Part shown: positions 18,099 through 43,791 of the stretch, one piece after another
How positions within the stretch are numbered: the stretch's first letter is position 1
Layout of the letters: each line of letters opens with the position of its first letter
NCBI GenBank assembly: GCA_001603955.1
Contig: LVAA01000027.1
Span: 1-48,657, forward strand
Origin: Syntrophobacterales bacterium Delta_02
GTDB taxonomy: Bacteria; Desulfobacterota; Syntrophorhabdia; Syntrophorhabdales; Syntrophorhabdaceae
DNA: 48,657 bases
Reading direction: 5' to 3'
The notes under the pieces: model-generated
What the model saw: only the letters and a program-made list of their open reading frames with translations
Database searches by the model: none
What the model was told of the DNA's origin: nothing
Program-made: the position numbers and the translations under genes

Positions 18099-18452
18099 AT
18101 GCTCGAGTACGTAGCGATCTTTGTCATGATGTGCCTTGCCGGGATCATTGCGGCCGTTATCATCGGAGCCTCACACCTTCTCGGGCACAGGACGAAAAGC
18201 AAAACAAAACTTGCCCCCTATGAATGCGGTATGACGACGAGCGGTCCGACGCGCAGGATAATGACCATCCGCTACTACATCGTGGCCATGCTCTTCCTCG
18301 TCTTCGACATCGAAATAATCTTTCTCTATCCCTGGGCGGTCATGAGCCGTCGTCTCGGGCTCTTCGGATTCATCGAGATGCTGGTCTTCGTTTTCATACT
18401 TTTCATAGGGTACATCTACATCTGGAAAAAAGGTGCATTGGAATGGGAATAG
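18099..18452 (+). CDS. nuoA: Complex I subunit NuoA
   Basis: This 117-residue protein has three membrane helices and the conserved loop KLAPYECG (about residues 37-44), which lies near the quinone entry site. [12 protein letters not shown] is also characteristic. It is the first gene of the operon and overlaps nuoB by 10 bases. Confidence 0.95.
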
Positions 18453-18937
18453 AAAAGAACGTACTGGTAACGACCATCGACTGGGCCATAAACTGGTCCA
18501 GGAAGAATTCTCTCTTCCCTGTCACATTCGGCCTTGCCTGTTGCGCGCTTGAGATGATGGTGGCAAGCTCCGCCGAGTACGATATCGCCCGTTTCGGCGC
18601 CGAGGTGTTCCGCCCCTCGCCGAGGCAGTCGGACCTCATGATAGTGGCCGGAACGCTGACGAAGAAAATGGCCCCCGTGGTTCGGAGGATCTACGAGCAG
18701 ATGCCGAATCCCAAGTGGGTCATCGCATACGGTGCCTGTGCATCATCGGGCGGCATCTTCAAATCCTACAGCGTTGTGCAGGGTGTTGACCAGATAATCC
18801 CCGTGGACGTGTACATCCCCGGATGTCCTCCCCGGCCGGAAGCCCTCCTGAAGGGCATCATAGAGCTCCAGAAGAAGATCCAGAAAGAGTCCATCAAGGA
18901 CAGACCTCTGATATCATTGCCCGGGAAGAGCGCATGA
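18443..18937 (+). CDS. nuoB: Complex I subunit NuoB (cluster N2)
   Basis: NuoB binds cluster N2, the last cluster before quinone. The ligands C33, C34, C99 and C128 are present in [18 protein letters not shown] and [11 protein letters not shown]. The open frame extends upstream to 18224 inside nuoA, but only ATG 18443 gives the family N-terminus and a normal length of 164 residues. It overlaps nuoA by 10 bases and nuoC by four. Confidence 0.96.
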
Positions 18938-19425
18938 GCGATAACAACGAGTTCCTGAAAATACTCTCCGGTAAGTTGGCAGGCATAAAGATCGTGCCGA
19001 CGCCCCCCGGCGAACCGAGCGCGATGGTCGACAGGGAGAGCATACGTGAGGCCCTCGACCATCTCAGGTACGACCGGGACCTCTCCTTCAACATGCTTGT
19101 CGACCTCTTCGCGGTCGATTACATGGGGGAGGAACCGCGCTTCGAGATCGTCTACATCCTTCGCTCGACGAAGAACAACGTGAGGATAACGGTGAAGACG
19201 AGGACGGGCGACGAGGGCATCGAAACGGCCAGCGATCTGTGGCCGGCGGCCAATTTTCTGGAAAGGGAGATCTACGATATGTTCGGTCTGCCTTTCGCGA
19301 ACCATCCCGATCTGCGCAGGATATACAACCCCGACGATTTCGAGGGCCATCCCCTGCGCAAGGAGTTTCCCCTCGAAGGCAAGGATTTCGACAAGCCCTT
19401 CGTGGTGGACCTGGAGAAGGCATAA
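18934..19425 (+). CDS. nuoC: Complex I subunit NuoC
   Basis: This 163-residue hydrophilic subunit has the signature [20 protein letters not shown] and PLRKEFPL. It packs against NuoD at the base of the peripheral arm. The start ATG at 18934 overlaps the nuoB stop (ATGA). The frame is open further upstream but inside nuoB. NuoC and NuoD are separate genes here, not fused as in E. coli. Confidence 0.94.
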
Positions 19426-20598
19426 ATGGCTGAAACCAAGTACATGACGATCAACATGGGTCCGCAGCATCCCGCCACACACGGGGTGTTGAGGGTGGTG
19501 CTCGAGCTTGACGGCGAAACGATCGTGTCAAGCATCCCTGATATCGGGTATCTCCATCGCGGTATTGAGAAGATCTTCGAGAACAGGACCTACTGGCAGG
19601 GCCAGCCCCTCACCGACAGGCTCGATTACACGAGCGGCATGTCGAACAACCTTGCCTACTGCCTGGCCGTGGAAAAGCTCCTTGGCATCGAGATCCCGAA
19701 GCGGGCCCAGTACATACGCGTGATGCTGAGCGAAATGCAGCGCATCGCCGCCCATCTTCTCTGGATATCGACACATGCCCTCGATATGGGTGCCATGACG
19801 GTCCTCTTCTACGGGTTCCGGGAAAGGGAATCCTGCCTCAAGGTGCTGGAGACCGTCTCGGGCGCGAGGCTCATGCCCGACTACATACGCTTCGGCGGGC
19901 TCCGGGAAGAGCTTCCCGAGGGGTTTCTGAAGGAAGCGAAGACCTTCATTGACGATCTACCCCGCAGGATCGATGAATACGAGACATTGCTCACGGAGAA
20001 CGTGATATGGAAAAGACGCCTCAAGGGCGTCTGTCCCTTGAGCGCCGAGGATGCCATAGGCTACGGCGTGACGGGTCCCGTGCTTCGCGCGTCGGGGGTC
20101 AATTACGATGTCCGCAAGGCTTATCCCTATTCGAGTTATGAGGATTTCGACTTCGAGATACCTCTCGGCACGGCGGGCGATGTCTACGACAGGTACCTTG
20201 TCCGCCTCAAGGAAATGAGACAGTCGATAAGGATCGTTACCCAGTCCATCGAAAAGCTCCCGGAAGGGCCGATCAAGGCCGATGCACCGGAATACGTGCC
20301 GCCGGAAAAGATTGATGTATCGAAGGACATGGCCGCCCTAATCCGTCATTTCAAGATCATGGCCGACGGCATCAAGCCGCCGAAGGGTGAGGCATATGCG
20401 TCGATCGAATCTTCAAAAGGTGAGCTCGGGTTCTATATCGTCAGCGACGGTTCGGAGAAACCCTACAGGGTAAGGATCCGTCCGCCCTCGTTCCTCAATC
20501 TCGGCTCCGTATCGAAGATGGTAGAGGGATCGCTGGTGGCCGATGTGGTCGCTGCGATAGGTAGCATCGACATAGTTCTCGGCGAAATAGACAAGTAA
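19426..20598 (+). CDS. nuoD: Complex I subunit NuoD (quinone site)
   Basis: This 390-residue protein carries the quinone-pocket motif MGPQHPATHGVLR at residues 11-23, then DIGYLHRGIEK. Near the end, RVRIRPPSFLNL and IGSIDIVLGEIDK match the family. The start directly abuts the nuoC stop. The length is typical of unfused NuoD. Confidence 0.96.
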   Translation: MAETKYMTINMGPQHPATHGVLRVVLELDGETIVSSIPDIGYLHRGIEKIFENRTYWQGQPLTDRLDYTSGMSNNLAYCLAVEKLLGIEIPKRAQYIRVMLSEMQRIAAHLLWISTHALDMGAMTVLFYGFRERESCLKVLETVSGARLMPDYIRFGGLREELPEGFLKEAKTFIDDLPRRIDEYETLLTENVIWKRRLKGVCPLSAEDAIGYGVTGPVLRASGVNYDVRKAYPYSSYEDFDFEIPLGTAGDVYDRYLVRLKEMRQSIRIVTQSIEKLPEGPIKADAPEYVPPEKIDVSKDMAALIRHFKIMADGIKPPKGEAYASIESSKGELGFYIVSDGSEKPYRVRIRPPSFLNLGSVSKMVEGSLVADVVAAIGSIDIVLGEIDK

Positions 20599-20607
20599 AG
20601 GTTGACT

Positions 20608-22557
20608 ATGGCAGACGTGATCTTCAGTTCCTGGCAGGGTGAGATAATAGACAACAGGGGCAAGGCCCGCGAGTCTTTCGATGCCCCCAAGGTAAAACTC
20701 CCCGGAGAGTTCGAGAAGGGTCTTCCCGTCAAGGCCTTCATGGGATGGGATGGCATCATCCTCTGTGATGAGAGCGTGGATATCATCGACATGTCCGTCA
20801 AGTACGTCGAGGCGGTCCAGAAAGAATCCTGCGGACGGTGCGTTCCCTGCAGGATAGGCAGCAAGGTCATCCTCGGCATACTGAAGAATATCGCCGACGG
20901 CCAGGGGAAAAAGGAAGACCTCGAAAGGATCCCCGCCATCGCTACCAGCATAAAGGATGGCTCGAAATGCCAGATCGGGCAGACAGGTTTTGTGCCCCTC
21001 CTTCAGGCCCTTTCCTTCTTCGGCCCCGAGTTCGACCGGGCGATAGCCGAAGGGCACAAGGCGAAGGCAGGCGACTACAAAGTGTCCGTCACGGCACCCT
21101 GCATGAGCGTTTGCCCCACCCAGCTCGATATCCCGAAGTACGTGGAGGCCATAAGCGAAGGGCGGTTCACCGAATCCCTGGCGGCGATAAGGGAAAACAC
21201 CTGTCTTGCCGGAACGCTCGGAAGGGTTTGCGTCAGGCCCTGTGAGTCCAACTGCAGGCGCGCGAACATCGACGAGGCGATATCCATAAAGAGCCTCAAG
21301 CGGTTCGCCGCTGACTACGAATTGGAAAAGAACGTAAAGCGCAACGTTGAAGCCAGGATAGATAAGAGCGAGAAGGTTGCCGTCATCGGCGCCGGCCCTG
21401 CCGGGCTTTCCTGTGCCTATTACCTTGCCCAGATGGGCTACCCCGTGACGGTTTTCGAAAAGCTCGGGGAACCCGGAGGCATGGCCGCGGTGGGCATCCC
21501 CGATTATCGTCTGCCAAGGTTCATTCTCGGCGGCGAGGGTGCCTTCGTGGAATCTTTCGGGGTGACCATGCGCTACGGTGTGACCCTGGGCAAAGACATA
21601 ACCATCGACCAGATCCGGAAGGACTTCGACGCCATCTTCATCGGTGTCGGCGCCCACAGCTCCTCACCTATGGGCGTGCAGGGCGAGGACATGGGTTATA
21701 GCGGCTTCATCCCCGGCGTGAAGTATCTTCTCGACATCAACAACGGCAAGGATCCTTATCCCGAGGGGAAGAAGGTTGTCGTTGTCGGCGGCGGCAACGT
21801 GGCGATGGACTGTGTGAGATCGTCCTTCCGCGTGGGCAAGCCCGATGTTCACCTCGTATACAGACGTACCAAGAAAGAAATGCCCGCCGACCCGGTCGAG
21901 ATCCACGAGGCGGAAGAGGAAGGCGTCGAGTTCCACTACCTCTGCAATCCTTCGCGGATCCTCGAAAAGGACGGCAAGGTTGTCGGTGTCGAATGCATCC
22001 GCATGGAATTGGGAGAACCCGACGCGAGCGGCCGCAGAAGGCCGGTCCCGGTCCCGGGTTCCGAGTTCGTGATCGAAACGGACATTCTCATACCCGCCAT
22101 CGGCCAGGCCGTCGATTTTTCCTTCCTTGAGAAGAAGGAAGACTTCGCCATAACGAAATGGAACACCTTCCAGGTCGATCAGGAAACCTTCGAGACCAAC
22201 GTACCGGGCATGTTCTCGGCCGGCGACTGCGAAACGGGTCCCGACGTCCTCGTCCGTGCCTGCGGCAACGGCAAGCGCGCGGCCTGGAAGATCGATGAAT
22301 ATTTGAGGGGAGAGAAACCGAAGGCCCGCATGAGCGAGAAGTTCGTGAAGTTCTTCGGCGATGTCAAGGTCTACGACAAGAACGAGAACGTCGGTTTTCT
22401 GGGTGACAGGGCGAGACATCTTTTGCGGCCGATGGCCCCCGAGGTCAGGAAGTGGACCTTCGACGAGGTGGAAGAAGGTTTCCGGACCGATGAGGCGATC
22501 GCGGAGGCGTCACGGTGCCTTCGCTGTTACAGGATAGGCATGATTGCGGTTGGTTGA
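20608..22557 (+). CDS. Hybrid complex I input subunit: NuoF [4Fe-4S] tail fused to a GltD/NfnB-like FAD-NAD(P)H oxidoreductase
   Basis: Residues 1-150 match only the C-terminal part of NuoF: C75, C78, C81 and C121 (ESCGRCVPC, then KCQIG) have the spacing of the N3 cluster. The NADH/FMN-binding Rossmann part of NuoF is absent. Residues 160-230 hold the GltD-type cysteines C165, C169, C199, C208, C212 and C216. Two dinucleotide folds follow: GAGPAGLSCAYYLA at 261-274 for FAD and VVVVGGGNVAMDC at 390-402 for a nicotinamide nucleotide. YRRTKKEMPA at 418-427 holds arginines that in GltD-like enzymes favour NADPH. The C-terminus has a CLRC pair (637-640). It lies exactly where nuoE and nuoF would be, and no nuoE exists in the window. 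Likely role: to feed electrons from NAD(P)H, or in reverse from NuoG. ATG 20608 is chosen over TTG 20602 for ribosome-site spacing (TAAAGG). Confidence 0.88.
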   Translation: MADVIFSSWQGEIIDNRGKARESFDAPKVKLPGEFEKGLPVKAFMGWDGIILCDESVDIIDMSVKYVEAVQKESCGRCVPCRIGSKVILGILKNIADGQGKKEDLERIPAIATSIKDGSKCQIGQTGFVPLLQALSFFGPEFDRAIAEGHKAKAGDYKVSVTAPCMSVCPTQLDIPKYVEAISEGRFTESLAAIRENTCLAGTLGRVCVRPCESNCRRANIDEAISIKSLKRFAADYELEKNVKRNVEARIDKSEKVAVIGAGPAGLSCAYYLAQMGYPVTVFEKLGEPGGMAAVGIPDYRLPRFILGGEGAFVESFGVTMRYGVTLGKDITIDQIRKDFDAIFIGVGAHSSSPMGVQGEDMGYSGFIPGVKYLLDINNGKDPYPEGKKVVVVGGGNVAMDCVRSSFRVGKPDVHLVYRRTKKEMPADPVEIHEAEEEGVEFHYLCNPSRILEKDGKVVGVECIRMELGEPDASGRRRPVPVPGSEFVIETDILIPAIGQAVDFSFLEKKEDFAITKWNTFQVDQETFETNVPGMFSAGDCETGPDVLVRACGNGKRAAWKIDEYLRGEKPKARMSEKFVKFFGDVKVYDKNENVGFLGDRARHLLRPMAPEVRKWTFDEVEEGFRTDEAIAEASRCLRCYRIGMIAVG

Positions 22558-22570
22558 AAAGGGAACAGGA

Positions 22571-24979
22571 ATGATAACACTCAAGATAGACGGCAAAGAG
22601 ATAAAGACCGAGGAAGGCAGAACGATACTCGAGGCTGCGCGGGAGAACGACATCTACATTCCCACGCTGTGCTACCATGAGAACCTTCTCCCCATTGGCT
22701 CCTGCAGGCTTTGCATAGTTGAGATCGAGGGGTATGAAAAACCGATGACATCGTGCACCACGGTCGCCGTTGAGGGCATTTCGGTCACGACCCAGTCGGA
22801 AAAGCTCTTCGCCATGCGCCGGGAATACCTCAAGTTCCTTCTGATCAATCATCCCCTTGACTGTCCCATCTGTGATTCCGGCGGGGAGTGCCGTCTGCAG
22901 GATCTGGTCTTCGAACACAAGATCGAATCCGTCGACCTTGCCGCCGAGCGGGAGCCGAAAAAGGCGAAACCTTACGCCACGGCGCTGATCAGGTATTCCG
23001 AGGACAGATGCGTGCTCTGTCTGCGCTGCGTGCACGCCTGTCGTGAGATCTCCGGGCGCAGGGTCCTGGAACTGACCGGGAGCGGCATAGAAGCGGCCAT
23101 GACCGCGAAGATGCCGGAGGATTGTATCTCCTGCGGGGAATGCCTCAATGTGTGTCCCGTCGGTGCCCTTACAGAACAGGAAAGCCCTATCAAGAGCAGG
23201 AAGTGGCAGACGAAGCGGCAGCCGACAACCTGCCCTCATTGCGGTTTCGGTTGCTCCCTCGACCTCGACGTGTTCGAGGACAGGTTCGTGACGAAGGTTG
23301 TGACCCGTCCGGACCGTCTTCCCAACAAGGGCTCTCTCTGCGTGATGGGACGCTTCGGGTACGACTTTGCGAATAACGAGGCGCGGCTTTCCGTGCCGAC
23401 CGTCAGGCAGGGTGCGGGAGCGTCCGAAGCCACCCTTGCCGAGGCCGTCGAGGCAACCGCGTCCGCCCTCGAGAAACTGGACAAGGAAGGCAAGACGATC
23501 GGATTTATCGTGTCCCCCCGGGCGACGAACGAGGAAGCCTACATGATCTCACAGATCGCGGGCAGGTTCTCGAAGGTCCGGTTCGGGACCGCCGGGTACT
23601 ACCATACGGGCAGGGTGCTGGAAACGTTGCGCCGAATGGGAATTCCCTATCCTTACGAATACGACGCGATCAACAATTGCGATCTCGTGGTCGTTGCCGG
23701 GGCCGACCTTCTCGGCAACAACCATCTCCTCGCCAACAAGGTGCGGGAAGTGGCTAAGAACAAAGGCGCGAAGGTGGCCATCATCGATCCTTCCCCCACA
23801 TCGCTGACAAGAGCCTGTGACGTGTGGGTGAAGCTTGCCCCGGGTTCCGACGCGCCGTTCTTCAAAGGTATCGCCGCGCAGTTGATCGCAGACAAGAAAA
23901 GTGACCCTGAGGCCGGGAGTCTGGAAGGTTTCCCGGGCAGCGCCGGTGGAGGCAAGGGGGATATAATAAAAGGGAGTGGGGCTGACGAGAAGAGCGTGGA
24001 CAGGTTTTACGCTCTTTTCGCCGCGGCCTCCCGTGTGGCCGTTATATTCGGCACAGGCATCAGCGACAGGACGGAAAGCATGGATGCGCTTCTCAACCTT
24101 TGCCTTGTGAAGGGCGTTCAGAAGACGGGGGTTGTGATGCCCACCGCCCTCCAGTCCAACGCCGTCGGCGTCCTCTCGGTCTTGCCCGATGCCGGCTCTT
24201 CCGGGGATGTCCTGGGTGAGGCAGAGGGCCTTTTTATCTACGAGGACGACCCTTTCCATTACCTTGCTGGCAAGATCGTGGAGGGTTCACTGAAGAGCAA
24301 GGCCTTTGTGGGGGTCTGTGACATGTTTCCCACAAGCGCCTCCGCATACGCGCATGTCGTTGCCCCCTCGGGCAGCTTTGCGCAGAAGGACGGCAGTTAT
24401 GTGGCCGAGGACGGTTTCATGAGAAAGGTGGCGCGCGCGGAAGGCGGATCGTCACCTGGATTCGACTTCCTGAGGTTCCTTCTTAACCGGCTCGGCGGCG
24501 GTCTCTACAGGGATGAACAGGAGGCTTCGACGGTGCTCTTCGGTAAAGAGGTCCTCGTGACGGACGGCAGCGGCAGGGCGATGCTGAAACCGACGAACGG
24601 CCAGGCGCGCCTCGCATCGACAGCCGGGGCCGCGGCGGAGAAGGCGGCAAAGCCCTTCACCCTCGTTCTGAGGAACCTCTTCTTCCATCATCACCTGGCG
24701 GGGCAGGGCGTTTACTCGAAGATGATGTATCTCCAGAATCCCGCGGTTGCCGGAGACAGGCTGTTCATCTCACCGGAAGACGCGGCGGCGCTGGGAATAG
24801 CCGACGGCGGTCAGGTCGTCGTTGAATCGGACCACGGGACTCTGCAGCATCCCGCTACGATCAAGGAAGGTCTTGGCAGGGGCGTGCTCGAATACAGGAT
24901 GTCGAAGAACAGGCAGGACATATTGAAGCTGACCGATGGGTACGGTAAACACATTCCAGTGACGGTGAAAAAAGGTTAA
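22571..24979 (+). CDS. nuoG: Complex I subunit NuoG (iron-sulfur, molybdopterin-like fold)
   Basis: This 802-residue protein carries, in order: the [2Fe-2S] site C34, C45, C48, C62; the His-ligated N5 motif H94, C98, C101, C107; a double ferredoxin motif C147, C150, C153, C157 and C185, C188, C191, C195; and the N7 motif C221, C224, C228, C257. The molybdopterin-type domain that follows has no metal site. Canonical NuoG has only the N4 cluster in the third place, so one extra [4Fe-4S] cluster is predicted, as in [FeFe] hydrogenase and formate dehydrogenase subunits. ATG 22571 gives the family start (ITLKIDGKE). It lies 13 bases after the hybrid gene. Confidence 0.93.
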   Translation: MITLKIDGKEIKTEEGRTILEAARENDIYIPTLCYHENLLPIGSCRLCIVEIEGYEKPMTSCTTVAVEGISVTTQSEKLFAMRREYLKFLLINHPLDCPICDSGGECRLQDLVFEHKIESVDLAAEREPKKAKPYATALIRYSEDRCVLCLRCVHACREISGRRVLELTGSGIEAAMTAKMPEDCISCGECLNVCPVGALTEQESPIKSRKWQTKRQPTTCPHCGFGCSLDLDVFEDRFVTKVVTRPDRLPNKGSLCVMGRFGYDFANNEARLSVPTVRQGAGASEATLAEAVEATASALEKLDKEGKTIGFIVSPRATNEEAYMISQIAGRFSKVRFGTAGYYHTGRVLETLRRMGIPYPYEYDAINNCDLVVVAGADLLGNNHLLANKVREVAKNKGAKVAIIDPSPTSLTRACDVWVKLAPGSDAPFFKGIAAQLIADKKSDPEAGSLEGFPGSAGGGKGDIIKGSGADEKSVDRFYALFAAASRVAVIFGTGISDRTESMDALLNLCLVKGVQKTGVVMPTALQSNAVGVLSVLPDAGSSGDVLGEAEGLFIYEDDPFHYLAGKIVEGSLKSKAFVGVCDMFPTSASAYAHVVAPSGSFAQKDGSYVAEDGFMRKVARAEGGSSPGFDFLRFLLNRLGGGLYRDEQEASTVLFGKEVLVTDGSGRAMLKPTNGQARLASTAGAAAEKAAKPFTLVLRNLFFHHHLAGQGVYSKMMYLQNPAVAGDRLFISPEDAAALGIADGGQVVVESDHGTLQHPATIKEGLGRGVLEYRMSKNRQDILKLTDGYGKHIPVTVKKG

Positions 24980-24982
24980 GGC

Positions 24983-25975
24983 ATGGAAGCGCTCTATACT
25001 TTGATTGAAATGGTGGTCAAGAACATCGTTGTAGTGCTCGCCCTCATGGGGTTCGTGGCCTACACCACGCTCCTCGAGCGAAGACTCCTCGGTCGTCTCC
25101 AGGTCAGGCCCGGTCCCAACAGGGTCGGCCCCTTCGGTCTGCTTCAGCCGATCGCGGACGGTGTGAAGTCCTTTTTCAAGGAAGATATCATACCGGACGA
25201 GGCCGACAAGCCGCTCTACGTTCTGGCTCCCGGGATATGTCTGTTCACGGCGCTCTCCATGTTTGCCGTCATCCCCTTCGGAGACACCGTCACCTTCCTG
25301 GGCAGGCAGATCAAACTTGTCGTTGCAGACCTCGACATGGGACTCCTGTACATCCTTGCCCTCGCTACCCTGGGTGAGTACGGTGTCGTTCTGGGCGGAT
25401 GGGCCTCGGGGAACAAGTACGGCGTGCTCGGGGCGTTGCGTGCCGCGGCGCAGATGATCAGCTACGAAGTGGCACTGGGCCTTGCGGTCATTGGCACCAT
25501 CATGCTCGCCGGTTCCCTCAACCTGCGTGACATCGTTTTCGCCCAGCAGGATATGTGGTTCGTGATCAAATACCCGGCGGGTTTCCTGTTTTATCTTGTC
25601 GCCGGTCTGGCGGAGATAAACAGGACACCTTTCGACATGCCGGAATCGGAGAGCGAGCTGGCATGCGGTTTCAACATCGAATACAGCAGCATGAAATTCG
25701 CTACCTTCATGATTGCGGAGTACGCGCACATGTTCACCGTGGCGGCGATCGTCACCACCCTGTTCCTCGGCGGATGGATGGGGCCCTGGCTGCCCGGGCC
25801 GATCTGGTTCCTCATCAAGGTCTTCGCGGTCATCTTCTTCTTCATCTGGGAGAGGGGAACATACCCCCGGTTGAGGTACGATCACATCATGCAGTTCGGG
25901 TGGAAGGTGCTCCTGCCCCTCACCCTCGCCAACGTTGTCGTTACCGCGGCCCTCGTGGCAATGGGGGTGCTGTGA
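24983..25975 (+). CDS. nuoH: Complex I subunit NuoH
   Basis: This 330-residue membrane protein has eight or so helices and the highly conserved loop GRLQVRPGPNRVGPFGLLQP at about residues 37-56, next to the quinone tunnel. LAEINRTPFDMPESESEL is also characteristic. It couples the peripheral arm to the proton-pumping arm. It starts three bases after nuoG and its stop overlaps the nuoI start by one base. Confidence 0.97.
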   Translation: MEALYTLIEMVVKNIVVVLALMGFVAYTTLLERRLLGRLQVRPGPNRVGPFGLLQPIADGVKSFFKEDIIPDEADKPLYVLAPGICLFTALSMFAVIPFGDTVTFLGRQIKLVVADLDMGLLYILALATLGEYGVVLGGWASGNKYGVLGALRAAAQMISYEVALGLAVIGTIMLAGSLNLRDIVFAQQDMWFVIKYPAGFLFYLVAGLAEINRTPFDMPESESELACGFNIEYSSMKFATFMIAEYAHMFTVAAIVTTLFLGGWMGPWLPGPIWFLIKVFAVIFFFIWERGTYPRLRYDHIMQFGWKVLLPLTLANVVVTAALVAMGVL

Positions 25976-26394
25976 TGAAACAGATACTGCCGCTTCTCAA
26001 GGGTCTCAGGTTGACGTTCACACGGGTCTTCACGAAGCCCATAACCTACCAGTACCCGGAAAAGAAGCACGAGGTGCCCGAGAGATGGCGGGGCATACAC
26101 TACTTCAAGAAGAACGAGGCAGGCGAGACGGCCTGCGTCGCCTGCGGCCTCTGCGTCGCGGCCTGTCCGAACCAGTGCATCACGCTGGAGATAGGGGAGA
26201 GATTCGACGGCAAGCGCTATCCGATAAGATACGAGATCGACCCGTGGCGATGCATCTACTGCGGCTTCTGCCAGGATGCCTGCCCGGTTAACGCCATCAA
26301 TCTCGGTAAAGACTATGAGCAGGCGCATTACCGGAAAGAGGATTTTGTACTGGACATGAAGAAACTCCTTGCCATGTATGAGGATAGAAAATGA
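25975..26394 (+). CDS. nuoI: Complex I subunit NuoI (2x[4Fe-4S])
   Basis: This 139-residue protein has two ferredoxin motifs for clusters N6a and N6b: C54, C57, C60, C64 and C93, C96, C99, C103. It passes electrons from NuoG to NuoB. The frame is open upstream inside nuoH; the ATG at 25975 shares one base with the nuoH stop (TGATG) and gives the normal length. It overlaps nuoJ by four bases. Confidence 0.95.
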   Translation: MKQILPLLKGLRLTFTRVFTKPITYQYPEKKHEVPERWRGIHYFKKNEAGETACVACGLCVAACPNQCITLEIGERFDGKRYPIRYEIDPWRCIYCGFCQDACPVNAINLGKDYEQAHYRKEDFVLDMKKLLAMYEDRK

Positions 26395-26924
26395 TCGGCA
26401 TCGGTATCGGATTCAAATGGTTTATCTTTGTTGTTGCGGCCCTTGTGGCGACGGGATCGTCGCTCATGATGGTGACAAGGAAAAACCCCATCCACAGCGC
26501 CCTCTGGCTGATCGTGACCTTCTTCTCCGTCGCGATCCTCTATGTGCTTCTCAATGCGACGTTCATCGCGGTGGCCCAGGTCATGGTCTACGCCGGGGCG
26601 ATCATGATGCTCGTCCTTTTCGTGATAATGCTGATCCACCTGGAATGGGGCGCGCAGTGGAAGAGGAAGCTTTCCTTTCCGAAGCTCATAGGAGGCCTCA
26701 TCACCATAATGCTTTTTCTGCAGGTTCTGGCAGGAGTGTTCACATATAGCGACGCCGGACAAAAAGGGATCTACAGCGCGCAGAAACTTGCCGAGCTCGG
26801 CAATGCCCGCGCGGTGGGGACGCTCCTCTACGGCAAGTATGTCTTCGCGTTCGAGGTTGGCTCGATACTCCTTTTGGTGGGTATCGTCGGAGCCGTACTG
26901 CTTGCGAGGAAAAGAAAGGATTAG
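26391..26924 (+). CDS. nuoJ: Complex I subunit NuoJ
   Basis: This 177-residue protein has five membrane helices and the family segment NPIHSALWLIVTFF, then VAQVMVYAGAIMMLVLFVIM, which includes the pi-bulge helix important for coupling. It overlaps nuoI through ATGA. Confidence 0.94.
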   Translation: MIGIGIGFKWFIFVVAALVATGSSLMMVTRKNPIHSALWLIVTFFSVAILYVLLNATFIAVAQVMVYAGAIMMLVLFVIMLIHLEWGAQWKRKLSFPKLIGGLITIMLFLQVLAGVFTYSDAGQKGIYSAQKLAELGNARAVGTLLYGKYVFAFEVGSILLLVGIVGAVLLARKRKD

Positions 26925-26933
26925 GAGAGAGAA

Positions 26934-27245
26934 ATGTTGCCCGAGATACCGCAGACCCTCTACTACCTGCTTTCAGCGGTGCTGTTCACGGTGGGCGCCG
27001 TCGGTGTCATAACACGGCGGAACGCGATCGTGATATTCATGTGCATCGAGCTCATGCTGAATGCGGTCAACCTGAGTTTTGTCACCTCGGGGAATTTTCT
27101 GAACTCATTGGACGGGACCATCTTCGTCATCTTCATCATGGCTGTTGCGGCGGCGGAGGCGGCGGTGGGGCTCGCCATATTCGTGCTCATATTCAGGCTG
27201 AAGGGCACGGTGCACGTTGACGATTTTAATCTGCTCAAGGGGTAA
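26934..27245 (+). CDS. nuoK: Complex I subunit NuoK
   Basis: This 103-residue protein has three membrane helices, with the conserved buried glutamates in [15 protein letters not shown] and [13 protein letters not shown] that take part in proton transfer. The length is standard. AGGAGAGA stands just before the ATG. Confidence 0.95.
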
Positions 27246-27259
27246 AGAAGGGGTTTTAA

Positions 27260-29239
27260 ATGGCTGACCTTATCTGGCTTATACCGGCGTTTCCCGCAAT
27301 CGGGTTCCTCATAAACGGCCTTCTCGGGATCCGTTTCCCGAAAACACTGACCGCCTGGGTTGCCTGCCTCTCTGTGATAGCATCCTTCGCGGTGTCGGCA
27401 ACCATCTTCGTGCAGTTCCTGCAGCTCGCGCCTGAAAGCAGGGTTTTCGAGAAGACCGTTTTCGACTGGATCGTATCCGGTAGCTTCAAGACACAGATCG
27501 GCTTCAGGATCGACGCGCTTTCGATCATCATGTGTCTCGTGGTTTCCGGTGTGGGATCCCTCATCCACATATATTCCGCGGGTTACATGCATGACGACCC
27601 GGGCTTCAGGCGCTATTTCTGCTACCTCAACCTTTTCGTTTTCATGATGCTCACGCTCGTGACGGGCGACAATGTGCTTCTCATGTTCGTCGGATGGGAG
27701 GGTGTGGGGCTCTGTTCGTACCTCCTGATCGGTTTCTGGTACGAGAAGGATTCCGCCTCGAATGCCGGGAAGAAAGCCTTCATCGTGAACAGGATCGGGG
27801 ACTTCGGTTTCCTCCTCGGCGTGTTCACGCTGGTGGGGGCTCTCGGGGCCGCCGGGGTTTGGACGCTGAAGTTCTCCGAGCTTCAGGCGAACGTGCATCT
27901 TCTCGGTCCTGGTCTGGCAACGATCATAACCCTTCTCTTCTTCGTGGGGGCCACGGGCAAATCGGCACAGATACCTCTCTATGTATGGCTTCCCGACGCG
28001 ATGGAGGGTCCGACGCCAGTCAGCTCCCTCATCCACGCCGCGACGATGGTCACCGCGGGTGTTTACATGATCGCGCGGCTGAATTTCCTGTACGCCCTCG
28101 CCCCGACGACCCTGCTCGTTGTCACCGTGGTAGGTCTTCTGACGGCCTTCTTTGCCGCCACCATCGGCTGTGCGCAGTATGACATCAAGCGTGTGCTTGC
28201 GTATTCGACGGTGAGCCAATTGGGGTACATGTTCGTCGGCGTCGGAGCCGGCGCTTACGCGGCCGGTATCTTCCACCTCATGACCCACGCCTTTTTCAAG
28301 GGTCTTCTCTTCCTCGCGGCAGGCAGCGTGATGCACGCCATGAGCGGGGAGCTCGACATGAGGAAGATGGGCGGGCTGCGCAAGAAGATACCCATCACGT
28401 ACTGGACGACCCTCATCGCCTGTTTGGCGATCGCCGGTGTGCCTGGCCTGTCGGGCTTCTTCAGCAAGGATGAGATACTGTGGATGGCGTTCAGCAGATA
28501 CAACAGCTTCTGGTTCTGGGCCCTGGGAGCGGTGACTGCCGGCCTGACGGCTTTCTACATGTTCAGGATGTTCTTCAACACCTTCCACGGCGAATGCAGA
28601 GCGTCGGAAGAGGTGAAACACCATATACACGAGTCTCCCAAGGTCATGACGATACCACTCATGATACTGGCGGTGCTCAGCATCATCGGCGGGTATGTCG
28701 GCGTGCCCCATCTGCTGGGAGGAGCGAATCATATCGAGAAGTGGCTTGAACCGGTCTGTGGGCACCACGCGGCGGCGGCCCATGCAAGCGGTTTCGGCCT
28801 TGTCAGCACAGCGTTTGCTTCGGCGGCCGAAGGGCACGCAGCCGAGTCAAGTGCGGAGATGCAGCTCATGATCGGGGCCATCATCATCGGTTTTCTGGGC
28901 ATATTCATCGCCTGGCTGTTCTATATGAAGAACCCCAATATTCCGAAGAGGTTCGTGGAGAAGTTTCACGGGCTGTTCACGCTGGTGCATAACAAGTATT
29001 TCGTGGATGAATTGTACGGTTTCATATTCGTGAAGGGGTTGTTGAAGCTTGGCAAGGTCTGCAAGGACTTTTTCGACGAGACGATCATTGACGGCATCAT
29101 AAACGGTATAGCCGCGGCGCTGTCGGGAATCGGCAGTCTGATCCGGAAGATACAGAGTGGATACGTTCAGGGCTATGCGTTTGCGATAATATTCGGCGCG
29201 ATCATCGTTATCGGCTATCTTATTTCGAGAATCTTGTGA
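27260..29239 (+). CDS. nuoL: Complex I subunit NuoL (antiporter-like)
   Basis: This 659-residue protein has about 16 membrane helices, including [18 protein letters not shown], with the proton-channel glutamate, and the family segment [20 protein letters not shown]. The C-terminal lateral helix (about residues 530-655) that spans the membrane arm is present. It lies 14 bases after nuoK and four to ten before nuoM. I see no sign of truncation. Confidence 0.96.
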
Positions 29240-29249
29240 AGGTGTGTTC

Positions 29250-30824
29250 ATGACGGTTATGTCGGTCCCAATACTCAGCTTTCTCATATACTTCCCGCTC
29301 CTCGGGGCAGTGATCCTGCTTTTTGCGAATCGCAGGAACGTTCAGTTCATCAAGGTCTTCACCCTTGTCATCTCCCTGATCGAGCTTGCCGTGTCGATCC
29401 CGCTCTTCTTCAAGTTCGATGACGCGGCGAAGACGATGCAGTTCGTTGAAAAAGCGGAATGGTTCCCTGAATGGGGCATCAGCTATTTCCTGGGCATAGA
29501 CGGCATCAGCCTTCTCCTTGTCCTGCTGACAACATTTCTGACGGTGATATGCGTTCTCTGTTCGTGGAAGGCTATCGAGGACAAGGTCAAGGAGTACTAC
29601 ATAACGTTCCTTTTCCTTGAAACAGCGATGATAGGTACACTGTGCGCCCTCGACCTGGTGCTCTTCTACATTTTCTGGGAACTGATGCTGATCCCGATGT
29701 ACCTCCTCATCGGCGTGTGGGGGGGGCCGCGGAGGATATACGCCGCCATAAAGTTCTTCCTTTTCACGATGGCGGGAAGCGTCCTCATGCTGGTGGCGAT
29801 CCTGACGCTCTATTTCTTCTACTATAACAGTACCGGCGTCTATACGTTCAACGTTCTTGAACTGTACAAGGCGAGCATCCCCATAGCGAAGCAGTACTGG
29901 CTCTTCGGGGCCTTCGCGCTCTCCTTTGCCATCAAGGTTCCTATGTTCCCGGTGCACACATGGTTGCCGGATGCTCACACTGAAGCCCCCACGGCAGGTA
30001 GTGTGATCCTCGCGGGGGTTCTGCTGAAGATGGGTACCTACGGTTTCCTGCGGTTCGCGATCCCGCTTTTCCCGGCGGCGGCAATCGACGCGATACCTCT
30101 TATGTCGATACTGGCGGTGATCGGCATCATCTACGGTGCGATCGTCAGCATGGTGCAGCCAGACCTGAAGAGGCTTATCGCCTTTTCGAGCGTAAGCCAC
30201 CTCGGGTACGTGATGCTCGGCATCTTCGCGTTCAATATGCAGGGGGTTCAGGGCGGTATCTACCAGATGCTCAACCACGGGATATCCACGGGCGGCCTCT
30301 TCCTTATCGTCGGCATGATATACGAGCGAAGGCACACAAGGATGATATCGGATTTCGGCGGCCTTTCGAAGGTGATGCCCATATTTGCGACCTTTTTCAT
30401 GATAATCACCCTTTCCTCGATCGCGCTGCCGGGAACGAACGGCTTCGTGGGCGAGTTTCTCATCCTTCTCGGCGCTTTCAAGAGCAACGTCGTCTACGGT
30501 GTTCTCGCGACGACCGGCGTCATACTGGGCGCGGTATACATGCTCTGGATGTTCCAGAGGGTCATGTTCGGGGTGGTCACGAAGGAAGAGAACAAGAACC
30601 TGAAAGACCTCAGCGGCCGCGAGATCCTGATACTGGTCTCCATGGTCTTCTTCGTAGTTCTGATGGGTGTGTACCCGAAGATGTTCTTCAAGAAGATGGA
30701 CACGTCGGTGACGGAGTACCTGGCCTTCGTGAAACAGAAAAGCGCCCAGGCACGCGTTCTCGAAGAGAACCCTGCCCCGGCGAAGATGGCCCGGGAAGTG
30801 ACGAATACGAATACGACAAGATAG
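29250..30824 (+). CDS. nuoM: Complex I subunit NuoM (antiporter-like)
   Basis: This 524-residue protein has the antiporter signatures [20 protein letters not shown] (channel glutamate) and [23 protein letters not shown] at 29244 would add two residues; ATG 29250 is better placed after AAGGTG. The C-terminal 40 residues are polar and variable. Confidence 0.96.
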
Positions 30825-30836
30825 GGGTGCCTGTTA

Positions 30837-32297
30837 ATGGACGCTTCAATAATACCTGCCTGCGATTTTAGATGGATAATGCCCGAGATCATGTTGACCG
30901 GGTGGGGGCTTCTGGTGCTTATCATCGGCGGTCTGACGAGAGGACCCGTCGCGTCGAAGACATGCGGTGTGCTTTCCATAATCGGGTCTGTTTGCGCCAT
31001 GTACTTCACGGTGAACCTCTGGGGCGCGAACCAGGAGGTGTTCAACCAGCTGTATACCATTGATAATTACGGGACCTTCTTCAAGGGTCTCTTCATAGCG
31101 ATCCTTATCCTCGTGTCCGTGGTCTCTTTGCGCTATGTTGACCGTGAGGGTATAGGGTCGGGCGAATACTACGCGCTCCTCATGTTCGGGGTGCTCGGCA
31201 TGATGGTCATGACATCGTCGCATCATTTTGTCACGATCTTCATCGGGCTCGAGGTCATGTCGCTTTCGATCTATGTTCTTTGCGGGCTCCTGAGGGGCAA
31301 CCTGTCATCGGTGGAGGCGGCACTCAAGTATTTTCTGCTGGGTGCGTTCGCGACGGCATTTCTGCTTTACGGAATGGCGATGATATACGGTTCCACGGGG
31401 CTCATGGACGTGGCCGAGCTGAAGAAATTCTTTCTCATGAAACAGCCCTTCTCGGCAACGATGTTCGTAATAGGCCTGGGCTTCCTCATTGTGGGTTTCG
31501 GTTTCAAGATAGCCTCGGTCCCGTTTCACATGTGGACGCCGGACGTATATCAGGGCGCGCCGACCTCCGTCACCGCGTACATGGCAACGGGCGTGAAGGC
31601 GGCGGCCTTCGGGGCGCTCATCAGGGTCTTCTTCACCGCCTTCGTTCCCTTCCAACTCGGTTGGTCGGAGATCATCTGGATACTGGCGGTACTGACCATG
31701 TGCGTGGGGAACATCACGGCGCTCGTACAGCGCGATATCAAGCGGATGCTAGCGTACTCGAGTATCGCGCACGCGGGCTACATACTGGTTGCCTTCATTA
31801 CCGGGGACAGAACGCTTGCGTCGAGCATGCTGTATTATCTCATGGCGTACTCCTTCATGAACATCGGGGCGTTCACGGTCGTGATCGCTCTGCAGAAGAA
31901 GGGCGAGAACAACAGCGATCTCGACAGCTATGCGGGTCTGGGTGCCCGCCACCCCTTCATCGCGCTTTGCATGAGCGTGTTCCTGCTGTCGCTTGCAGGA
32001 GTGCCTCCGCTGGCCGGATTCATGGGGAAATTCTACGTCTTCAGCACGGCCGTGAAGGCCCAGTACTACTGGCTGGCCATCATCGGTTTCCTCAACAGCG
32101 TTGTGGCCGCGTACTACTATCTGAGGGTCATGATGTACATGTACTTCAAGGAGACCATAGGCGAGCCGGGGACGGCGGAAAAGGCTCCGGGGTATGGTCT
32201 AGTGATGCTGATCTGCATATGGGCCCTTCTTCATATGGGCATCTTCCCCAAGACCTTCGTTCTCATAGCGGAAAAGGCGGTGGGTATTTTCGGTTAG
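30837..32297 (+). CDS. nuoN: Complex I subunit NuoN (antiporter-like)
   Basis: This 486-residue protein has about 14 membrane helices. IFIGLEVMSLSIYVLCG carries the channel glutamate and FHMWTPDVYQGAPTSVTAYM the family signature. It is the last gene of the operon; an imperfect hairpin follows 36 bases later. Confidence 0.96.
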   Translation: MDASIIPACDFRWIMPEIMLTGWGLLVLIIGGLTRGPVASKTCGVLSIIGSVCAMYFTVNLWGANQEVFNQLYTIDNYGTFFKGLFIAILILVSVVSLRYVDREGIGSGEYYALLMFGVLGMMVMTSSHHFVTIFIGLEVMSLSIYVLCGLLRGNLSSVEAALKYFLLGAFATAFLLYGMAMIYGSTGLMDVAELKKFFLMKQPFSATMFVIGLGFLIVGFGFKIASVPFHMWTPDVYQGAPTSVTAYMATGVKAAAFGALIRVFFTAFVPFQLGWSEIIWILAVLTMCVGNITALVQRDIKRMLAYSSIAHAGYILVAFITGDRTLASSMLYYLMAYSFMNIGAFTVVIALQKKGENNSDLDSYAGLGARHPFIALCMSVFLLSLAGVPPLAGFMGKFYVFSTAVKAQYYWLAIIGFLNSVVAAYYYLRVMMYMYFKETIGEPGTAEKAPGYGLVMLICIWALLHMGIFPKTFVLIAEKAVGIFG

Positions 32298-37370: not shown

Positions 37371-38765
37371 ATGCCAAACAACCTGCTGCGACAGATACCG
37401 AAGGTGGATTCCATACTTGAGAGCGCCGGTTGGGTGTCTCTTGTTTCCGCCTGCCCCGAGTCCATAGCGAAGGATGTCCTTCGTGAGCACCTCGACTCCC
37501 TGCGTCTTGACATCAGGGAAGGGCGGATGGACTCCGTGCCCTCCATAGACGAGATCGTGACTGCAGTGGGCATAAGGGCGGCCGCCCTTATCGAGCCGGG
37601 CCTGAAGAGGGTCATAAACGCCACCGGCGTTATCATCCACACGAACCTGGGAAGGTCGCTTCTCGCCAGGCGGGCGGTCAATGCCATCATGAGGGTCGCC
37701 ATGGGCTATTCCAACCTCGAGTACGATATCGAAAAGGGCGCGCGAGGCAGCCGGTACGACCATTGCCGGTCCGTCCTCAGGAGGCTTACCGGCGCGGAGG
37801 ATGCCCTTGTCGTCAACAACAATGCCGGGGCGGTCTTTCTTACCCTCAATACCCTCGCGGAAGGCAAAGAGGTGATCATCTCGCGGGGTGAGCTTATCGA
37901 GATCGGCGGCTCCTTCAGGATACCCGACGTGATGAAGAAGTCCGGCGCCGTGCTCAGGGAAGTGGGGACCACCAACAGGACCTACATCGAGGACTTCGAG
38001 CGGGCCATCGGTGATAATACCGGTCTCATCATGAAGGCCCATACGAGCAACTACCGTATCCGCGGCTTCACCCACGACGTGTCCTCGGAGGAACTCGTCG
38101 CATTGGGGAAGAGGTACAATATCCCCACCTACTATGACACGGGCAGCGGACTCTTTTACAATTTCGAAGGCCTCGGGGTCTCCGGCGAGCCCCTGATACC
38201 GGACGAGCTGAAGAAGGGTTTCGATGTCATATCCTTCAGCGGCGACAAGCTGCTGGGGGCACCCCAGGCGGGGATCGTGATCGGTGAGAAGGACTGTCTC
38301 GAGGCCATGAAGAAGAATCCCATGACGAGGGCGCTGCGCCCGGACAAGTTCACCCTCGCCGGCCTCGAAGCGACGCTGCTCCTCTGCCTCGATCCCGATT
38401 CGGCGGCAGGCATTCCCACTATCAGGATGATCCTTGAAGAAAAGGCCGCCGTGACGAAGAGGGCGCAGCGGATCGCCTCACAGTTGAGAAAAAAGTGCCC
38501 TCACGCCGGGGCCTCCGTCATCGATGTCAATTCCGAGGTGGGGGGTGGAAGCTTTCCCGACATGGTCATTCCCTCCGCCGGTGTGGCCCTCGAGCCCCGG
38601 ACGATGACCCTCGCGGCGTTGGAGGCGAAGCTCAGGCGCCTGCCTCTCCCCGTCATCGCACGGATCGAAAAGGAGAGGCTCATACTCGACATCAGAACGG
38701 TCCTCGCCGAAGACGAGGGTGATCTCGTCGCGGCGGTGGCCGGCGCCTTTCAAAATGACCGATAG
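37371..38765 (+). CDS. selA: L-seryl-tRNA(Sec) selenium transferase
   Basis: SelA converts seryl-tRNA(Sec) to selenocysteinyl-tRNA(Sec) with selenophosphate and pyridoxal phosphate. The 464-residue protein has the family opening LLRQIPKVD, NATGVIIHTNLGRSLL at about 83-98, and the PLP lysine K293 in SFSGDKLLGAPQAG. It shows that the organism inserts selenocysteine. selB, selD and the tRNA(Sec) gene are not in the window. It overlaps the next gene by 11 bases. Confidence 0.95.
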   Translation: MPNNLLRQIPKVDSILESAGWVSLVSACPESIAKDVLREHLDSLRLDIREGRMDSVPSIDEIVTAVGIRAAALIEPGLKRVINATGVIIHTNLGRSLLARRAVNAIMRVAMGYSNLEYDIEKGARGSRYDHCRSVLRRLTGAEDALVVNNNAGAVFLTLNTLAEGKEVIISRGELIEIGGSFRIPDVMKKSGAVLREVGTTNRTYIEDFERAIGDNTGLIMKAHTSNYRIRGFTHDVSSEELVALGKRYNIPTYYDTGSGLFYNFEGLGVSGEPLIPDELKKGFDVISFSGDKLLGAPQAGIVIGEKDCLEAMKKNPMTRALRPDKFTLAGLEATLLLCLDPDSAAGIPTIRMILEEKAAVTKRAQRIASQLRKKCPHAGASVIDVNSEVGGGSFPDMVIPSAGVALEPRTMTLAALEAKLRRLPLPVIARIEKERLILDIRTVLAEDEGDLVAAVAGAFQNDR

Positions 38766-43436: not shown

Positions 43437-43791
43437 GGGGGCGACTGGCTTCGACAGGGAAGTGAGGGTCAGAGAGGCATGCCGGGTTACTGCTTACCCG
43501 TACCCAAGCGGAACTAAACACAACTGCAGACTCTCACGAGTACGCACTAGCTGCCTAGTAAGCAGCTACATCATCCGGACCTTCTTCCTGCTTTAGGTCC
43601 GTGTATGGTGTCATTCTAGCAGGATAGTCCGGTGTAACGCCTATAGCGCCGGGCGAAACCTTGTAGGCTGGGGCAGTCAGGAACCCGTCAGCGGGTGTCT
43701 GGCTGCCCGAGACTTAATACGCTGACTAAGCATGTAGTCTGTCTGAAGCCTTCTTTTCTGGACGTGGGTTCGATTCCCACCGCCTCCACCA
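43437..43791 (+). ncRNA. ssrA: tmRNA (transfer-messenger RNA)
   Basis: The 5' end GGGGGCG (43437-43443) pairs with the 3' CGCCTCC, followed by ACCA ending at 43791. The T arm GTGGGTTCGATTCCCAC and the family start GGCTTCGACAGG are present. The tag frame most likely resumes at GCA 43526 and encodes ADSHEYALAA before TAG at 43556 and TAA at 43559. Pseudoknot-rich sequence follows. The upstream in-frame codons AAC ACA ACT cannot be excluded as part of the tag. The gene begins one base after smpB, so both may come from one transcript cut by RNase P. Confidence 0.96.

Follow-up and report, generated by a model that had tools for sequence, protein, structure and literature searches.

A Syntrophorhabdaceae complex I operon with a GltD-type FAD module where NuoE and the FMN domain of NuoF are expected

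In the window (the whole stretch of DNA analysed, 48,657 nucleotides) from Syntrophobacterales bacterium Delta_02, a complex I operon carries one gene where nuoE and nuoF are expected, encoding a NuoF tail fused to a GltD-type FAD/NADP(H) module. We estimate a probability of about 0.7 that this fusion replaces NuoE and the FMN/NADH part of NuoF, likely docks on NuoG via its tail, and would pass NADPH-derived electrons to a quinone-reducing proton pump. Both the use of NADPH and the binding to NuoG we infer from sequence. Such a module had been proposed in a preliminary description of this DNA, and gene order and domain content support the replacement.

Operon organization and the fusion protein

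The complete complex I operon runs from nuoA to nuoN on the plus strand of the window's contig, C221, at 18099-32297 (Table 1), and Pfam and NCBIfam profiles find the quinone and membrane modules (NuoA-D and NuoH-N) all encoded. The fusion open reading frame can start at TTG 20602 or ATG 20608 and ends at 22557, giving 649 aa when counted from the ATG. It begins 9 bases after the end of nuoD (20598) and stops 13 bases before the ATG of nuoG (22571). Open reading frames and profiles thus confirm that a single 649-residue gene separates nuoD from nuoG, as first described, and that the window lacks nuoE and an FMN-binding NuoF domain: neither PF01512 (the FMN/NADH domain of NuoF) nor PF01257 (NuoE) has a match anywhere on contig C221. 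There is also no gene for an NfnA partner in the operon, since the nuo genes and the fusion fill 18099-32297 and leave no room for one. Elsewhere in the window are a tmRNA gene (43437-43791, tag ADSHEYALAA) and a gene for SelA, the selenocysteine synthesis protein (37371-38765, PF03841 494.8 bits), so the organism likely makes selenoproteins.

Table 1. Coordinates of the complex I genes and of the parts of the fusion gene in the window
Feature	Coordinates	Strand	Evidence and remarks
nuoA	18099..18452	+	Oxidored_q4 128.1 bits
nuoB	18440..18937	+	Oxidored_q6 104.6 bits; NuoB 252.8 bits; start by eye, ORF 18224-18937
nuoC	18934..19425	+	Complex1_30kDa 145.5 bits; start by eye, ORF 18823-19425
nuoD	19426..20598	+	TIGR01962 576.7 bits, above the cut-off of 459.35
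Fusion gene, NuoF N3 tail + GltD-type FAD/NADP(H) module, 649 aa, at the nuoE/nuoF place	20608..22557	+	
NuoF-tail part, residues 1-150, predicted N3-type ligands C75, C78, C81, C121	20608..21057	+	PF10589 76.7 bits
GltD-type part, residues 160-570, FAD and NADP(H) folds, YRR at 418-420	21085..22317	+	PF14691, PF07992, StnC/NfnB alignments, conservation
C-terminal arm, residues 606-640, RC637LRC640	22423..22527	+	Second matched stretch to 4ylf_B, residues 8-42
nuoG, one extra 4Fe-4S motif (CISCGEC)	22571..24979	+	TIGR01973 345 bits, below the cut-off of 470
nuoH	24983..25975	+	NADHdh 411.8 bits
nuoI	25975..26394	+	TIGR01971 136.3 bits, over cut-off; start by eye, ORF 25555-26394
nuoJ	26391..26924	+	Oxidored_q3 136.9 bits
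nuoK	26934..27245	+	Oxidored_q2 101.8 bits
nuoL	27260..29239	+	Proton_antipo_M 282.6 bits, Proton_antipo_N 77.5 bits
nuoM	29244..30824	+	Proton_antipo_M 264.8 bits; name from gene order
nuoN	30837..32297	+	Proton_antipo_M 258.1 bits; name from gene order

Within the fusion protein, Pfam places NADH_4Fe-4S (the NuoF tail) at 65-146 (76.7 bits), Fer4_20 at 164-244 (80.8 bits) and Pyr_redox_2 at 258-555 (96.6 bits), in coordinates of the 651-aa form that starts at TTG (subtract two for the ATG numbering used elsewhere); Complex1_51K has no match up to E 0.001. Pfam and alignment therefore bear out the reading of an N3 tail (C75, C78, C81, C121) followed by a GltD-type protein with YRR. The four cysteines and Y418-R419-R420 are unchanged across 31 aligned sequences, the window's own counted. 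The predicted cofactor residues, these cysteines included, and the NADP-type YRR are invariant in 38/38 nuo-linked proteins, and YRR is invariant in all 58 rows of the tree described below. Seven of the 112 rows of a broader alignment (A2) have glycine for one N3 cysteine, C81 (P0124, P0143, P0163, P0169, P0213, P0216 and P0223). All were found with a protein encoded outside nuo operons (L040) as query, and the N3-type cluster of these homologues may be missing one ligand.

Sequence comparison predicts C165, C169, C208, C212, C216 and K231 as ligands of the two 4Fe-4S clusters of the GltD part. At the proximal-cluster position K231 aligns with K170 of StnC, not with the glutamate of NfnB; it is lysine in 58/58 tree rows and in 111/112 rows of A2, the sole glutamate belonging to an NfnB-like protein of the same genome. 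A second StnC ligand, C114, corresponds to I175, and this position is I or V in 54/54 fusions of the tree set. R301 lines up with R239 of StnC, which corresponds to the arginine of NfnB; being common to NfnB and StnC, this residue does not decide on bifurcation. The C-terminal arm (606-640) is homologous to the N-terminal arm of NfnB, a circular permutation that is the same as in the StnC and NfnA alignments, and its C637 and C640 are invariant in 38/38 nuo-linked rows. Two Stn-type hallmarks are thus found in the fusion, a permuted arm with RCxxC ending the GltD domain and a lysine at the proximal-cluster position, and the alignments find no trace of the NfnB hallmark, a glutamate ligand at the proximal cluster. 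For the fusion modelled by itself with AlphaFold2 (pLDDT 92.5, pTM 0.90), the closest solved folds are the NADPH chains of NfnABC and StnABC; the match (VIA-align) spans mainly residues 161-607 and hardly covers the tail. An earlier model, built from the alignment of 31 close sequences, was set aside (pLDDT 68.1).

The neighboring NuoG also departs from the ordinary type. Its best NCBIfam match, TIGR01973, stays under the curated cut-off, and its best PDB matches are formate dehydrogenase and hydrogenase chains. An extra 4Fe-4S cluster motif had been suggested for this protein, and in the alignment CISCGEC is indeed seen in the window's NuoG and in four relatives with nuo-linked fusions and is missing from two ordinary NuoG; it aligns also with formate dehydrogenase and hydrogenase chains. 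Compared with the ordinary NuoG of the relatives G009 and G028, the window's NuoG reaches 176 and 161 bits; compared with the formate dehydrogenase-like protein encoded in the same genome, it reaches 160 bits. At nine of the ten loci where a fusion lies outside nuo operons, a NuoG-like gene stands alongside (the tenth, L041, is on a 4-kb contig), suggesting that the tail pairs with NuoG.

The interpretation would be undermined by a nuoE and full-length nuoF serving this complex from elsewhere. Both genes exist in the genome (285 contigs, 98.04% complete, 5.98% contaminated), with four FMN-type NuoF places (PF01512) and four strong NuoE places, but they lie in hydrogenase and formate dehydrogenase-like clusters, and we rejected all four PF01512 places as the complex I input. 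There are three NuoE-NuoF-[FeFe] hydrogenase sets (two on contig C203, one on C178), arranged as NuoE-NuoF-[FeFe] hydrogenase, NuoE-[NuoF+tail+GltD, 1017 aa]-[FeFe] hydrogenase, and NuoE-NuoF-HydA. The set on C59 is NuoE-NuoF-formate dehydrogenase-like protein, with a DHODB-type gene and a GltD-type gene. The 1017-residue protein is encoded on C203 (L012:3999-7049) beside NuoE and the [FeFe] hydrogenase. In principle, NuoF and NuoE proteins from these sets could visit NuoG. NuoD has a single match in the genome at E 0.001, and the RnfD/NqrB family has none in this 98% complete assembly.

Distribution and origin of the fusion

The fusion has at least 120 homologues (the query's own counted) at 64-100% identity over 89-100% of the query, and the few listed with organism names come from Syntrophorhabdaceae, Syntrophorhabdales, Syntrophales, Syntrophus, Deltaproteobacteria and, once, WOR-3. 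This number together with the conserved gene order excludes chance. We surveyed 99 genomes of relatives, the window's own included, and counted 58 unbroken NuoD genes scoring above the curated cut-off. Among the matches listed, the fusion comes directly after 28 of these, at a distance of 0-127 bases (again counting the window's own), NuoF after 11, at 485-817 bases, leaving room for nuoE, neither after 19 inside the limits of our script, and both after none. Five of the 19 have, among the matches listed, a sub-cut-off NuoF within about 4 kb (G051, G065, G069, G088 and G091), and another (G043) sits at a contig end. The NuoD of G051, G071, G075 and G088, over the cut-off only with pieces joined, were excluded; among the matches listed they have no fusion or over-cut-off NuoF within the script limits. 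Most members of the same family numbered G013-G038 have, among the matches listed, only sub-cut-off NuoD-like proteins or none, and no nuo-linked fusion.

The same survey yielded 39 fusions, taken among the matches listed when the match reached into the tail or was cut by a contig end, with at least 45% identity and a frame below 750; a 39%-identical match of G091 (on C270) was excluded. Eleven of them lack an over-cut-off NuoD beside them. For the fusions of G010 and G045, which are of this kind, nuoG is the next gene, and the fusion of G001 starts at a contig end. The fusions of G050, G060 and G097 and the second copy of G039 have a NuoG-like gene alongside and neither nuoA-D nor nuoH-N; thus fusions of this type also occur apart from complex I. 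Four relatives (G009, G021, G028 and G039), one of them in the same genus, encode both operon types, so the fusion operon is not simple compensation for a lost NuoF. We read the ordinary operon of G009 (L137, same genus) from nuoA to nuoN with nuoE, nuoF and nuoG, and that of G028 up to its cut end in nuoN. In the G009 operon nuoC and nuoD form one 582-residue frame.

A second survey, overlapping in part with the first, covered 80 loci from genomes of named species, grouped by hand. The fusion lies in a nuo operon in 15 and elsewhere in 10; a further 4 encode NuoF+tail+GltD proteins, 10 a Stn-like arrangement with NuoF and GltD-NuoG as separate chains, 2 a NuoH-GltD-NuoI protein, and 39 GltD domains in other settings. 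The expectation that similar fusions exist in other bacteria is therefore borne out, by 28 NuoD neighborhoods among the matches listed and by these 15 loci. The fusion still adjoins nuoD at six loci where nuoG does not come next (L032, L042, L122, L124, L125 and L130); in L032 and L042 nuoG is upstream of nuoA and the fusion remains between nuoD and nuoH. At L036 the fusion gene directly follows nuoN, not nuoD, and the contig ends inside it. At L045 and L049 a tail-GltD fusion of the same type directly precedes a NuoG-N/[FeFe] hydrogenase gene; the two would together make an [FeFe] hydrogenase that is linked to NADPH and lacks an FMN module.

In a midpoint-rooted tree of 58 proteins, which does not give the direction of change, 36 of the 38 nuo-linked fusions share a group that also encloses two nested non-nuo rows; the nuo-linked L044 (Deferrisomatales) and L143 (G066) fall outside it. 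A single group of all nuo-linked fusions is rejected (AU test, p 2e-86), and thus complex I operons gained or lost the fusion on more than one occasion. The non-nuo label of one nested row, L135, is unsure because it lies 324 bases from a contig end. For L108-L134 the nuo label was checked by nuoD, nuoG or both alongside each, except L131. Sequences cut at contig ends (L036, L043, L048, L136 and L050), a broken frame (L052), two repeats (L142 and L144, which are L135 and L131 again) and duplicates of entered rows (L117 and L125) were left out.

The tail scores 53-81 bits against NuoF-like chains of Stn, NfnABC and hydrogenases, versus at most 45 bits against chains of complex I proper (57 for 9mqx_B, a 622-residue chain named 51-kD subunit). 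Against soluble NuoF of its own genome it reaches 72-98 bits, and against the ordinary NuoF of G009 and G028 58 and 53 bits. These higher scores against soluble and Stn-type NuoF speak for an origin of the tail outside complex I. The input part (the fusion plus a NuoG resembling those of formate dehydrogenases and hydrogenases) may have been swapped in as a unit of the kind that stands beside soluble formate dehydrogenases and [FeFe] hydrogenases, although the mixed NuoG scores make this a weak suggestion. Residues 408-1012 of the 1017-residue protein match fusion residues 28-641 at 42% identity; because its last ~600 residues match in this way, one may view the fusion as the 1017-residue protein minus its FMN module, although the midpoint rooting gives no direction to the change. 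The 1017-residue protein is a plausible template of the complex I fusion.

Electron donor and alternative readings

NADPH had been suggested as the likelier partner, and YRR supports this by analogy with DsrL, from which it is carried over here as a putative NADP(H) mark. In the available portion of PMC7596348, YRR is related to NADP(H) use in the DsrL-2 group, and one DsrL-2 enzyme was measured to be strictly NADP(H)-dependent. Similarly, StnC is described as taking NADPH through the corresponding domain (PMC10482914, available part). In the proposed path, hydride from NADPH would reduce the FAD of the GltD-type domain, and electrons would pass one at a time from FAD to the two 4Fe-4S clusters of this domain, the proximal of which would have a lysine ligand like that of StnC. 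They would then move to the N3-type cluster of the NuoF tail and reach menaquinone by way of the NuoG, NuoI and NuoB clusters. This NADPH:quinone reaction should be reversible.

The preliminary description had also raised a putative exchange of electrons with ferredoxin through the extra NuoG cluster and, further, confurcation, in which an NfnB-like FAD joins NADPH with ferredoxin, by way of the extra NuoG cluster, driving or driven by the quinone pump. The FAD domain is homologous to NfnB (4ylf_B, 325.7 bits), R301 matches the NfnB arginine through StnC and is invariant in 112/112 A2 rows, and NuoG does have the extra motif. However, that motif is shared in alignment with formate dehydrogenase and hydrogenase chains, the operon has no space for NfnA, and the fusion has lysine where NfnB has glutamate; StnC, with the same lysine at its proximal cluster, does not bifurcate, the arginine geometry being given as the other reason (PMC10482914, available part). 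Straight NADPH input is likelier because the proximal ligand aligns with the lysine of StnC, and the confurcation proposal is not supported: we now regard it as very improbable. It is also improbable that the fusion accepts NADH, so that flavin and architecture (FAD for FMN) would have changed and the donor would not. DsrL-1 forms, of the same domain family, do prefer NADH in the accessible text of PMC7596348, but the same text ties YRR to the DsrL-2 group, YRR is invariant here, and a NuoF-type complex I operon, kept in four relatives, would be redundant.

We think it unlikely that the fusion and its NuoG-like partner form a soluble NADPH enzyme, like SfrAB or a formate dehydrogenase, merely co-transcribed with an 11-subunit complex I lacking NuoEFG. 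Fusion/NuoG-like pairs do stand alone at 9/10 non-nuo loci, and among solved structures the window's NuoG comes closest to formate dehydrogenase and hydrogenase chains, but the place right after nuoD is conserved in many relatives, even where nuoG is not the next gene, and among the matches listed 0/58 NuoD have both fusion and NuoF. Last, an assembly or binning artefact has a negligible chance. The assembly is fragmented and carries the contamination given above, but the order recurs in 28 NuoD neighborhoods (the window's own included) and in 15 loci elsewhere, two sets that partly overlap, and such conservation of gene order already refutes an artefact. Direct NADPH input into complex I remains our preferred reading.

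Relation to known systems and a second graft

The StnABC/NfnABC transhydrogenases (StnC, 8oh5_C; NfnA, 9n5u_A; 9bov_A) share with the fusion a permuted GltD-type NADPH/FAD domain with a proximal-cluster lysine, at 36-42% identity in structural alignments. There the domain is embedded in a chain resembling NuoG and supplies a bifurcating FMN module of the NuoEF type, whereas the fusion is joined to a NuoF tail within a complex I operon. Bifurcating NfnB, unlike the fusion, has a glutamate ligand at the proximal cluster and an NfnA partner. SfrAB, the NADPH:Fe(III) oxidoreductase of Geobacter sulfurreducens, resembles the fusion by description in having a GltD-like NADPH subunit and a NuoG-like partner (PMC7483475, available part). 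Yet SfrAB and the beta subunits of NADP-dependent formate dehydrogenases are soluble and lack a membrane pump; many fusion homologues carry the source names 'formate dehydrogenase (NADP+) beta subunit' or 'formate dehydrogenase beta subunit'. The 1017-residue protein differs in retaining an N-terminal FMN module and a NuoE neighbor. Like the 14-subunit respiratory complex I, the operon has nuoA-D and nuoG-N together; unlike it, NuoE and the FMN/NADH domain of NuoF are missing, and its NuoG, below the curated cut-off, has one cluster motif more than the two ordinary ones. Absence of NuoE and NuoF is shared with the 11-subunit complex I, which, as described for Chloroflexi in the available part of PMC5736913, also lacks NuoG; here NuoG and the fusion are present.

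A different graft, also of a GltD-type domain, occurs in nuo operons of two Chloroflexi records, where NuoH, a GltD domain and a NuoI-like end share a single 1013-residue frame (L057:1053-4091 and L061:3359-6397). The L061 operon runs from A to N without E, F and G, and the L057 record begins inside nuoD. YRR and LKRF are readable in both sequences, and the full-length form is present in 10/100 genomes around G099 (Dehalococcoidia and kin). On balance we slightly favor the view that a GltD-type NADPH/FAD module, free of FMN and NuoE, is a fourth natural electron entrance of complex I, beside NADH/FMN, F420H2 and ferredoxin. Such an entrance would have been gained repeatedly: anaerobic Deltaproteobacteria would have it as a NuoF-tail fusion seated on NuoG, and Dehalococcoidia as NuoH-GltD-NuoI within the membrane arm. 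NADPH would then reduce the quinone chain directly via a proton pump, in some species beside an ordinary NADH-type complex I. The component parts are known, and their joining to complex I is apparently new within the scope of the open-access literature. In the portions of it available to us we found no description of a GltD-type subunit in complex I, which is weak evidence of novelty, as most subscription papers and supplements lie outside that scope.

In cells, NADPH generally forms a more strongly reducing pool than NADH does (PMC7596348, available part). If our reading is true, these bacteria would couple the NADPH pool straight to the membrane and to proton translocation, and the energy balance drawn for syntrophic bacteria would change. 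Species with both complex I types would allow two donors to be distinguished in one cell, and the fusion operon would represent a natural experiment on complex I with another donor, another flavin and no NuoE.
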